The notes beneath the pieces were generated by a model. That model worked only from the letters and a program-made list of their open reading frames with translations, did no database searches and was not told where the DNA came from. A program made the position numbers and the translations under genes. 35,212 nucleotides of DNA from Thermoleophilia bacterium (GTDB lineage Bacteria; Actinomycetota; Thermoleophilia; Miltoncostaeales; Miltoncostaeaceae), in the NCBI GenBank assembly GCA_016780995.1, contig JADHKZ010000006.1:1-35212 (forward strand), read 5' to 3'. Below are positions 1,438 to 12,481 of this stretch, one piece after another. Position 1 is the first letter of the stretch. Every line of letters begins with the position of its first letter.

Positions 1438-1872
1438 CTACTCGGGGCGGGGTGAATCGTCCCTGAGCACGCACATGCCCTCGCCCTCGGCCACCAGCAC
1501 GTCGCCCGCGTGGATGCTCACCACCGCGCGGAACCCGCGGTCGCTCTTCTGGATGAGGCGGCCGCGAAGCGTGAGCTCCACGCCCTCCAGCGGTACTGGC
1601 TTGCGCAACCAGTAGCGCACCTTGGCGGTCATGCCCCACAGGTCGTGCGGCGCGCCGGCGTACACCAGCATCTCGTCCACCAGCAGGCCGATGATGCCCC
1701 CGTGCAGGCGGTCGGCCCAGCCCTGGAACCGCGCGTCGGGGGTCCATGTGGCCACCGCGTCGGTGCCGTCGCGGTACACGTGGAGGCCCAGGCCCGACTC
1801 GTTCTCCGATCCGCACACGAAGCAGTGCGTGATGTCGGGCGGGTTCAGCAGATCACGGGCGTCGGTGCTCAT
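1438..1872 (-). CDS. PaaI-type hotdog-fold thioesterase
   Basis: A 144-residue single hotdog domain, the usual size for small acyl-CoA thioesterases of the PaaI/4HBT type. The N-terminus carries HCFVCGSENESGLGL, typical of this subgroup. The core has FQGWADRLHGGIIGLLVDEML, the conserved substrate-pocket helix with the HGG turn, then strands ending in VLVAEGEGMCVL. The likely role is hydrolysis of an acyl-CoA thioester; the substrate cannot be read from sequence. The start is ATG at 1872-1870. There is no Shine-Dalgarno site; instead CACCAT lies 6 nt upstream as part of a palindrome shared with ogt, consistent with a leaderless transcript. Confidence 0.85.
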   Translation of the reverse strand: MSTDARDLLNPPDITHCFVCGSENESGLGLHVYRDGTDAVATWTPDARFQGWADRLHGGIIGLLVDEMLVYAGAPHDLWGMTAKVRYWLRKPVPLEGVELTLRGRLIQKSDRGFRAVVSIHAGDVLVAEGEGMCVLRDDSPRPE

Positions 1873-1889
1873 GCCACCATGGTGGCATG
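1870..1889. promoter_or_regulatory. 20-bp perfect palindrome holding both divergent start codons
   Basis: CATGCCACCATGGTGGCATG is a perfect inverted repeat. Its outermost triplets are the start codons of the thioesterase (minus, 1872-1870) and ogt (plus, 1887-1889). Each strand offers the same -10-like CACCAT six nt before its ATG (1875-1880 plus, 1879-1884 minus), so the two candidate -10 boxes overlap by two bases. It may be a regulator site or simply a symmetrical back-to-back leaderless promoter. Confidence 0.6.
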
Positions 1890-2354
1890 GCCGGATGGGT
1901 GGCGCAGGTGGCGCGCGTGCCGACCGAGCACGGCGCCCGGTGGATGGCCTGGGGCGATGGCGGCCTGGTGGCGGCCGCGCGCTCGCGCGGCGATGCCGAG
2001 CGGCGCGCGCGTGCCGCCGGGGCCGTCCGGGTGGAGGATGGCGAGGCGGGCCCGGTGCCCGCGCACCCGGACTGGTCGCGACTGCCCGGGGGGTTCGCGG
2101 GTCGCGCGCTGCGCGCCTGCCACGGCATCCCACGGGGGCAGGTGATCACCTATGCGCAGTTGGCCGCCCGGGCCGGGAGCCCGGGTGCCGCGCGCGCGGC
2201 GGGAACGGCCATGGCCCGCAACCCGCTGCCCGTGGTGATCCCCTGCCACCGCGTGGTGCGCGCCGACGGGGGCGTGGGGGCGTACTCGGCGGGCGGCAGC
2301 GGGGCCAAGCGGCGCATGCTGCGGGCGGAGGGGGCGCTGCCGAAAGGCGCCTGA
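1887..2354 (+). CDS. ogt: methylated-DNA-[protein]-cysteine S-methyltransferase
   Basis: A 155-residue suicide DNA repair protein that removes the alkyl group from O6-alkylguanine. The C-terminal domain holds the recognition helix region (GFAGRALRACHGIPRGQVITYAQLA, Arg-finger and minor-groove contacts) and the active-site motif IPCHRVV with the acceptor Cys at residue 120, then GGVGAYSAG and a C-terminal KRRMLRAEG. The N-terminal domain is short and poorly conserved, as is common in this family. The start is ATG at the edge of the palindrome shared with the divergent thioesterase. No ribosome site is visible, suggesting a leaderless message. secG follows 21 nt downstream with its own promoter-like hexamer. 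Confidence 0.92.
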   Translation: MAGWVAQVARVPTEHGARWMAWGDGGLVAAARSRGDAERRARAAGAVRVEDGEAGPVPAHPDWSRLPGGFAGRALRACHGIPRGQVITYAQLAARAGSPGAARAAGTAMARNPLPVVIPCHRVVRADGGVGAYSAGGSGAKRRMLRAEGALPKGA

Positions 2355-3042: not shown

Positions 3043-3064
3043 TAGGGTGGCGAACACCAGTTCG
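3043..3064 (+). promoter_or_regulatory. lexA promoter with SOS (LexA) box
   Basis: TAGGGT (3043-3048) is a -10-like hexamer. Two bases downstream, CGAACACCAGTTCG (3051-3064) is an exact match to the actinobacterial LexA box CGAAC-N4-GTTCG. Placement over the transcription start region implies repression by LexA, i.e. autoregulation. About 26 nt of leader remain before the lexA ATG. Confidence 0.88.
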
Positions 3065-3090
3065 ACATTCCCGACCCGAGGGCACCCACC

Positions 3091-3696
3091 ATGGCGAGCG
3101 CACCCACCGGCAGGCAGGCCGAGATCCTGGCCTTCATCGAGGACCACGTCGACCGGCATGGCTACCCGCCCACCGTCCGCGAGATCGGCCAGGGCGTGGG
3201 GCTGGCGTCGCCGTCCACGGTGCACCGGCACCTGGAGAAGCTGGAGCAGGGCGGGCACCTGCGCCGCGACGCCTCCAAGCCGCGCGCCATGTTGGTGGGC
3301 CTGCAGGGCGGGCGCTCCGCGGAGCGGTCCGGTCCGCCGCCCATGACCCTGCCGCTGGTGGGCGCGGTGGCCGCGGGCGCGCCCATCCTGGCCGAGGAGC
3401 ACGTGCAGGACCACGTGGCGGCGCCGTTCGCCGCCGACTACCTGCTGCGGGTCAAGGGCGACTCCATGATCAACGCGGGCATCCTCGACGGCGACCTGGT
3501 GGCGGTGAAGCAGCAGGACACGGCGCGCGATGGCGAGATCGTGGTGGCGCTCATGGGCGAGGAGGCCACGGTGAAGCGGGTGTACCGCGAGCCGGGCGGC
3601 GTGCGGCTGGAGGCCGAGAACGACGCCTACGACCCCATCCGCGGCACCGACATCAGCGTGATCGGCCGCGTGGTGGGCGTGATGCGCGACCTCTAG
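3091..3696 (+). CDS. lexA: SOS repressor LexA
   Basis: A 201-residue autocleaving repressor of DNA-damage genes. The N-terminal winged helix (about 5-68) includes GYPPTVREIGQGVGLASPSTVHRHL. The linker reaches the cleavage site Ala95-Gly96 in VAAGAPI. The C-terminal peptidase domain has the catalytic Ser125 (VKGDSM) and Lys162 (ATVKRV), 37 residues apart as in E. coli LexA. All catalytic elements are intact. Its own LexA box lies just upstream. The ATG at 3091 gives the normal family N-terminus. rnpB begins about 30 nt after the stop. Confidence 0.97.
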   Translation: MASAPTGRQAEILAFIEDHVDRHGYPPTVREIGQGVGLASPSTVHRHLEKLEQGGHLRRDASKPRAMLVGLQGGRSAERSGPPPMTLPLVGAVAAGAPILAEEHVQDHVAAPFAADYLLRVKGDSMINAGILDGDLVAVKQQDTARDGEIVVALMGEEATVKRVYREPGGVRLEAENDAYDPIRGTDISVIGRVVGVMRDL

Positions 3697-11471: not shown

Positions 11472-12467
11472 CTAGGGGATGATCACCGCGGCGCCGTCCA
11501 CCTGGCCCGTGGCGATGCGCTGCAGGGCGCGGTTGGCATCGGCCAGGGGGTGCTCCTCCACCGAGGTGGTGACAGGGATCTCCGCGGCGAGCGCCAGGTA
11601 GTCACGGGCATCCGCGCGGGTGACGTTGGCCACCGACCGGATGGACCGCTCCCACCACAGGTCGGCGTAGTCGATGGGCGGGATGCCGTCGAGGTGGATG
11701 GCATTGATGGCCACGGTGCCCCCGCGGTCGAGGGCCGTGAGCGCGTGCACCACCACTTCCCCCGCGGGCGCGAACGTGACCGCCAGGTCGAGGGGGAACG
11801 GCGGTGCATCGCCGTATCCGCCAGCCCACTCGGCACCGAGCTCCAGGGCGCGGCCCTGCTCGGCCATCGACCGGGTGGCGACGGCCACGCGGCAGCCCAT
11901 GTGGCGCGCCACCTGGATGGCCTGCAGCGCGGACGCCCCGAAGCCGTACAGGCCCACGCGCGCACCGGGGAAGATGCCGGCCACCCTCAGTGCCCGGAAC
12001 CCGATGATGCCCCCGCACAGCAGGGGGGCGAGGTGGCGGTCGTCCGGGCCCTCGGGCAACGGCACCACCACGTCCGCCCGAGCGGCTACCAACTCGGCAA
12101 ATCCGCCGTGGCGATCCCAGCCGGTGAACGTGGCCGACGCGCACAGGTTCTCGCGCCCCGTGGTGCAGAAGCCGCACTCCCCGCAGGTTCCGGCCAGCCA
12201 GGTGAGGCCCGCCCGGTCGCCCGGGGCCCATCCCTGCACGCCAGGCCCCACCTGCGCGATGCGCCCCACCACCTGGTGCCCGGGGATCACCGGCAGCACG
12301 CGCGCGGCCAGGTCGCCCTCGCAGATCTGCAGGTCCGTCCGGCACGCGGCGCAGGCGGCCACGCGGATGACCACCTCGCCCGGGCCGGCCGTGGGGTCGG
12401 GGAACGTGGCCAGCCGCAGGGGCTTGGCGTGGATGCTTCCCGGCGCTGTCAGCACCATCGCGCGCAT
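11472..12467 (-). CDS. zinc-dependent alcohol dehydrogenase (AdhA-type MDR)
   Basis: A 331-residue medium-chain dehydrogenase/reductase. Catalytic zinc ligands are Cys42 (ACRTD) and His64 (GHQVVG). The structural zinc site is Cys95, Cys98, Cys101 and Cys109 (CGECGFCTTGRENLC). The nucleotide-binding turn is VGLYGFGASALQAIQVA, the variant typical of the AdhA 'propanol-preferring' subgroup, followed by VAVATRS, which suggests NADP(H) or relaxed cofactor use. It likely oxidises short-chain alcohols or reduces aldehydes. The start is ATG at 12467 (a second in-frame ATG is at 12458). CACGCT (12476-12481, complement) lies 8 nt upstream and covers the divergent gene's start codon. Confidence 0.92.
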   Translation of the reverse strand: MRAMVLTAPGSIHAKPLRLATFPDPTAGPGEVVIRVAACAACRTDLQICEGDLAARVLPVIPGHQVVGRIAQVGPGVQGWAPGDRAGLTWLAGTCGECGFCTTGRENLCASATFTGWDRHGGFAELVAARADVVVPLPEGPDDRHLAPLLCGGIIGFRALRVAGIFPGARVGLYGFGASALQAIQVARHMGCRVAVATRSMAEQGRALELGAEWAGGYGDAPPFPLDLAVTFAPAGEVVVHALTALDRGGTVAINAIHLDGIPPIDYADLWWERSIRSVANVTRADARDYLALAAEIPVTTSVEEHPLADANRALQRIATGQVDGAAVIIP

Positions 12468-12481
12468 ATGCTGGGAGCGTG
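12465..12481. promoter_or_regulatory. interlocked divergent leaderless promoters
   Basis: Start codons of the alcohol dehydrogenase (minus, 12467-12465) and the hypothetical gene (plus, 12479-12481) are only 11 nt apart. TATGCT (12467-12472) is 6 nt before the plus GTG and touches the minus ATG; CACGCT on the minus strand (12476-12481) is 8 nt before the minus ATG and covers the plus GTG. The two -10 candidates therefore occupy each other's start codons. Confidence 0.5.

Follow-up and report, generated by a model that had tools for sequence, protein, structure and literature searches.

The two genes and the junction between them

The window analysed here, a stretch of 35,212 nucleotides from a genome of the class Thermoleophilia, carries near its beginning two genes that lie head to head. 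One of them, ogt, is recognised by its active-site motif and by its profile matches (Pfam PF01035, E = 8.5e-28; TIGR00589, E = 2.4e-24). The other appears to encode a thioesterase, a label based on weak matches, namely those of phmmer to the PDB at E values of about 1e-6 (2prx, "Thioesterase superfamily protein", E = 3e-6; 2ov9, E = 8e-7) and the weak, sub-threshold 4HBT_2 matches of its homologues.

1438–1872, minus strand: hotdog-type thioesterase-like gene, 144 aa, ATG at 1872 (open reading frame and phmmer to the PDB)
1887–2354, plus strand: ogt, methylated-DNA–protein-cysteine methyltransferase, 155 aa, ATG at 1887 (PCHR active-site motif)
1870–1889, both strands: junction, a palindrome with both start codons and both predicted promoters (14-bp gap between the ATGs in 13 of 13 copies)

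The junction, CATGCCACCATGGTGGCATG, is a perfect 20-bp palindrome that occurs exactly once in the genome, at 1870–1889, and its outer triplets are the ATG of the thioesterase gene (1872, minus strand) and the ATG of ogt (1887, plus strand). The hexamer CACCAT stands 6 nt ahead of each ATG, at 1875–1880 on the plus strand and at 1884–1879 on the minus strand, and the two hexamers overlap by 2 bp, the central AT at 1879–1880. The original prediction had described a palindrome of this length holding both divergent starts, with CACCAT 6 nt before each of them, and the sequence is exactly as described. A search of the whole window with Rfam returned RNase P and two tRNAs only, with no known RNA element at the junction.

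Because head-to-head ATGs read CAT...ATG, 6 of the 20 positions (3 of the 10 base pairs) are symmetric by construction, and Markov models of order 1 to 4 lead one to expect 0.25–0.5 perfect palindromes of 20 bp in the window, which contains two. The symmetry alone is therefore weak evidence, and the idea that the palindrome is in itself a chance rarity was rejected. Its placement exactly on the two start codons, together with the conserved spacing and the conserved −10 determinants (see below), are not chance.

Conservation among relatives

The relatives compared are Thermoleophilia according to their named records, some of which are labelled Miltoncostaeales; the names on a few other records are implausible. 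Public records of metagenome-assembled genomes labelled "Bifidobacterium breve" carry the Thermoleophilia gene pair or the thioesterase gene, and these names look wrong.

The ogt/thioesterase junction was found in 12 of the 20 genomes of the genus, as 13 copies (12 Miltoncostaeales-type species). The gap between the two ATGs is exactly 14 bp in every copy, despite a pairwise identity at four-fold sites of the thioesterase gene that goes down to 0.40, and the N-terminus of the thioesterase, MS-DA, aligns across all of them. The bases that are invariant across the 13 copies, CATG..A..AT.GT..CATG, spell TGn-xAnnAT-N6-ATG with C at −1 on both strands. The perfect palindrome itself is present in only three copies; the remaining ten have 6–8 symmetric pairs out of 10, and in these ten the four free base pairs, which are tied neither to the codons nor to the −10 determinants, are symmetric at 0–2 of the 4. 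Since the symmetry of the free pairs has been lost in 10 of the 13 copies, no constraint is visible on the palindrome as such or on an operator, and the mirror symmetry at 1870–1889 is mostly incidental. The alignment of related junctions, which had been proposed as a check on symmetry beyond the codons, thus answers against the symmetry and in favour of the spacing and the −10 determinants, which are kept in all 13 copies. Together with the leaderless register described below, this gives good support to the claim of two overlapping −10 elements, one on each strand.

How strongly the determinants are held can be judged from columns that were chosen from the literature (A-11, T-7, and C-1) and not from these alignments. 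With start sites at the adenines of the ATGs, the predicted columns are 7, 11, and 17 for the plus strand and 14, 10, and 4 for the minus strand, and all six are invariant, with zero changes on the gene tree. The other eight columns of the spacer show 2, 2, 4, 1, 1, 0, 1, and 1 changes, and the four-fold sites in both genes show a mean of 3.1 changes, with 6 of 80 invariant. The difference is marked both against the four-fold sites (Fisher p = 2e-6) and within the spacer, where one of the eight other columns is invariant (p = 0.002), these p-values being indicative only because the changes are few and the copies related. The constraint on the columns that adjoin each start codon may in part reflect how leaderless mRNA is translated, and not transcription.

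In one relative within the genus (G010), the ATG of the thioesterase gene is replaced by ACG and the minus-strand A-11 is lost, as judged by eye in this single case, and the ogt half is intact (TGC-GACCAT-GCGTGC-ATG). This one natural experiment suggests decay of one half in the direction that a promoter model predicts.

Predicted leaderless starts in the genome

A survey of 1.47 of the 1.67 Mb of the genome (about 1455 predicted genes) found TANNNT before ATG or GTG at spacings of 6, 7, 8, and 9 nt in 105, 105, 74, and 35 cases, respectively, versus about 6 at most other spacings; about 310 of the 1455 genes have the hexamer 6–9 nt before the start codon. On this evidence from the sequence, leaderless starts are common in this genome. 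No −35 signal was found in this genome-wide survey upstream of the leaderless genes.

At the spacing of 6 nt, 81% of the TANNNT starts have C at −1. In M. tuberculosis, leaderless promoters are reported to have a pyrimidine, usually C, at −1, and a TGN extended −10 is reported to be associated with stronger promoters (PMC3898074). Hexamers of the form xAnnAT, without T-12, behave in a similarly register-dependent way: at spacing 6, 8 of 25 have both TGn and C-1, versus 0–2 at other spacings, where TGn is nearly absent. The starts of ogt and of the thioesterase gene are two of those eight.

Predicted promoter elements

Taken alone, CACCAT is a poor match to TATAAT, and at −12 all copies of the junction have C or G and none has the usual T. 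An extended −10 can in general stand in for missing promoter elements. What makes CACCAT plausible as a −10 hexamer is the TGn ahead of it together with A-11, A-8, T-7, and C-1. The bases A-11 and T-7 are those that flip out for contact with sigma (PMC10268837). The elements proposed are as follows.

1872–1880, plus strand: predicted extended −10 of ogt, T-15 G-14 (1872–1873), n, CACCAT (1875–1880; A-11, A-8, and T-7); invariant columns, genome-wide spacing 6
1879–1887, minus strand: predicted extended −10 of the thioesterase gene, T-15 G-14 (complement of 1887–1886), n, CACCAT (1884–1879); columns invariant in 13 copies
1879–1880, both strands: shared AT core, the putative A-8/T-7 of both promoters; invariant in 13 copies
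1887, plus strand: predicted transcription start of ogt (A of ATG, C at −1), from the −10 register
1872, minus strand: predicted transcription start of the thioesterase gene (A of ATG, C at −1), from the −10 register

The junction is very probably a minimal promoter that works in both directions and yields two leaderless mRNAs, with a spacing other than the common ones. On each strand, an extended −10 (TGn-xAnnAT) would lie 6 nt ahead of the ATG, so that RNA polymerase carrying the housekeeping sigma factor would initiate at the A of the start codon and leave no 5′ leader. The self-complementary AT in the overlap of the hexamers would serve both promoters as A-8/T-7. A distance of 15 bp between the predicted start sites sets −14 of either promoter opposite −1 of its partner and −15 opposite +1, so that C-1 A+1 of one gene would write T-15 G-14 of the other gene's extended −10 onto the opposite strand. 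Each CATG end would then be a start codon, an initiator, and a part of the neighbour's promoter. The perfect palindrome found here would follow from these symmetric constraints, the four free pairs having matched by chance.

What the sequences themselves show is the 14-bp spacing, the columns without change, and a leaderless signal across the genome. From these we infer the exact start sites, the use of the sigma factor, the level of expression, and mutual exclusion, and the same holds for every claim about transcription made here. Two constitutive and probably weak leaderless promoters would share the 20 bp, and both genes are most likely expressed at low constitutive levels from a junction that does not act as a switch.

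Comparison with known promoters

Prokaryotic bidirectional promoters, as defined by Warman, Grainger, and Wade, have start sites 7–25 bp apart on opposite strands; distances of 18, 10, and 23 bp are common, and 18 bp is a preference rather than a requirement (PMC12825309; PMC10268837). The junction resembles them in its overlapping, near-symmetric −10 elements, with A-11 and T-7 on both strands in all 13 copies; its predicted start distance is 15 bp. It differs from the common 18-bp geometry, in which −7T pairs with −11A (PMC10268837), since here the hexamers overlap at their 3′ ends and T-7 lies opposite A-8. Two further differences are that the initiator CA of one side forms the TG of the other side's extended −10 and that both products are predicted to be leaderless, with the promoter filling the whole gap.

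As in the leaderless promoters reported for Actinobacteria (M. tuberculosis, PMC3898074; a survey, PMC3160421), the predicted −10 lies directly upstream of the start codon, at a spacing of 6 on both strands within the range of about 6–9 nt, there is no −35 motif, and C at −1 and a purine at +1 are the preferred bases, TGN being linked there to higher activity. Unlike the TANNNT hexamer of those promoters, the junction hexamer has no T-12, being xANNAT with TGn instead, and one 14-bp gap is common to both genes. A further parallel is prpD/Rv1129c of M. tuberculosis, also divergent neighbours, for which both transcripts are reported to be leaderless (PMC3898074), as is predicted here; the accessible part of that source does not describe an overlap of the two −10 elements.

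Other compact divergent pairs

Overlapping −10 elements of two leaderless divergent genes are predicted at five further places in the genome, with gene names assigned by reading the proteins rather than by search. These other bidirectional leaderless promoters have the known TAnnnTA overlap. Three of the five are kept across the genus, where the gap and only the −10 core are conserved:

RlmH-like/phosphoesterase-like: CTACAGTA; gap of 19 in 14 of 17
RNase D-like/ABC-F-like: CCTAATnTTAGG; gap of 19–21 in 17 of 18
HisC-like/Lon-N-like: GAGTGTAGCCTCC; gap of 25 in 17 of 18

The ogt junction is thus one of several predicted bidirectional leaderless promoters. The other two places, between a heliorhodopsin-like gene (identified by eye) and an rRNA-methyltransferase-like gene, which are divergent, and between pgl and gnd, have overlapping −10 elements in this genome and are not used as support because their gaps are not conserved.

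The RNase D-like/ABC-F-like junction, CCTAATnTTAGG, is a near-perfect palindrome in almost all members of the genus and might be a second symmetric bidirectional leaderless promoter. Within the window, there is another very tight divergent pair at 12465–12481, CATATGCTGGGAGCGTG, where an ADH-like minus-strand gene and a plus-strand gene are separated by 11 bp, with candidate −10 elements on both strands.

Recurrence of the layout in Thermoleophilia

A pattern search across 399 Thermoleophilia genomes found 41 sites for CATGNNANNATNNTNNCATG in 40 genomes, versus 2 for the reversed pattern, 9 (in 8 genomes) for a register-scrambled control in which A and T had changed places at columns 7 and 14, and 11 for an equally specific 18-bp pattern. 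The ogt junctions of the genus itself account for about a third of the 41. Of 22 sites read outside the genus, at least 14 lie exactly between head-to-head open reading frames of other families, whereas about one of the control sites lies at such starts. The pairs concerned are HisA/TrpR-like (7), QueG/zinc oxidoreductase (3), and, as single cases, amidohydrolase/Ca exchanger, luciferase-like/SDR, RsmD/hydrolase, and PfkB-like/small protein. The 15-bp geometry recurs at no fewer than six unrelated gene pairs in the class. A second 15-bp site in the present genome was rejected, its plus-strand open reading frame being only 23 aa long.

The HisA/TrpR-like junctions have full TAnnAT hexamers on both strands. 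In several Thermoleophilia, 14 bp, CATGTTAnnATnnTAACATG, separate the head-to-head genes for HisA and a TrpR-like repressor, and the symmetric promoter may double as the repressor's site, which would make for an autoregulated histidine gene. These sites are not clean evidence for a promoter because the extra symmetry could serve the TrpR-like protein.

The balance of the evidence tips slightly towards a distinct and recurrent class of bidirectional promoter, with a start distance of 15 bp, where a pair of leaderless start codons and a pair of extended −10 elements encode one another, each CATG being one gene's start and the other's TG, and which would have arisen repeatedly at unrelated divergent pairs of Thermoleophilia.

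Alternative explanations

If polymerase occupied the junction in one direction at a time, as would follow from the overlap, the overlapping −10 elements could be a built-in either/or switch, that is, a regulatory device that makes alkyl repair and the thioesterase mutually exclusive. Overlap of this kind sterically bars simultaneous occupancy, as is established for bidirectional promoters (PMC12825309), and the arrangement is conserved. However, none of the five bidirectional promoters tested in E. coli had enough basal activity for its two directions to compete, and interference was seen there only under strong activation of one direction (PMC12825309), so a built-in switch should not be assumed by default. 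The junction shows no activator site, −35 element, or conserved flank, and the same layout joins unrelated genes without evident reason for mutual exclusion. A switch is a very unlikely reading.

Another explanation would be an operator, in which a dimeric regulator on the palindrome covers both starts and controls the two genes together. The perfect 20-bp dyad does lie over both promoters in three species, and the symmetric GTTAnnATnnTAAC at the TrpR-like/HisA pairs, which has the same geometry, could double as the site of the TrpR-like protein. However, the free pairs are fully symmetric in 3 of the 13 copies and lose their symmetry in the other 10, no further copy at two mismatches or fewer stands elsewhere in the genome, upstream of other genes included, sites at three mismatches occur about as often as they do for some palindromes made by shuffling, and no regulator gene directly adjoins the pair. 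The palindrome as operator was rejected on the grounds that its symmetry is not conserved and its site not repeated; the original prediction's suggestion of a regulator site over both starts is not supported, given the lost symmetry and the absence of near copies in the genome beyond what shuffled palindromes give, and we give it a marginally smaller chance than the switch.

It is more improbable still that there is no promoter here and that the starts lie close by chance or genome compaction, with a palindrome made by the coincidence of start codons and GC-rich codons: the expected number of palindromes in the window, the six positions symmetric by construction, and the two compact pairs of the genome that are recent and not conserved are in line with this, but it is at odds with the strict 14-bp gap, the six invariant columns compared to fast four-fold sites, the genome-wide leaderless register, and the recurrence at unrelated pairs.

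Implications and neighbouring observations

A bidirectional leaderless promoter at this junction would illustrate a limit to the shrinkage of intergenic DNA, with two promoters housed in 14 bp and two start codons doubling as promoter parts. The 15-bp geometry, in which an extended −10 is paired with an initiator, would be added to the 18-, 10-, and 23-bp geometries of E. coli. The rule CATGnnAnnATnnTnnCATG between head-to-head genes might allow bidirectional leaderless promoters to be predicted from DNA alone in unculturable organisms, and recognising the layout would correct the annotation of start codons and promoters in compact actinobacterial genomes.

Downstream of ogt, the promoter region of lexA (3043–3091) has TAGGGT at 3043–3048, followed by an SOS box, GAACaccaGTTC, at 3052–3063 and the lexA ATG at 3091. 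The box is a perfect one of the actinobacterial type, and its position suggests that LexA is autoregulated; no such box was seen for ogt. Between the two genes, at 2658–2823, lies a small open reading frame of 50 codons that begins at a GTG at 2671, with TAGAGT 7 nt ahead of it. It is predicted to encode a membrane peptide with a single span, VETSIIRSLPVKFVG..., and looks like an unannotated leaderless small gene.
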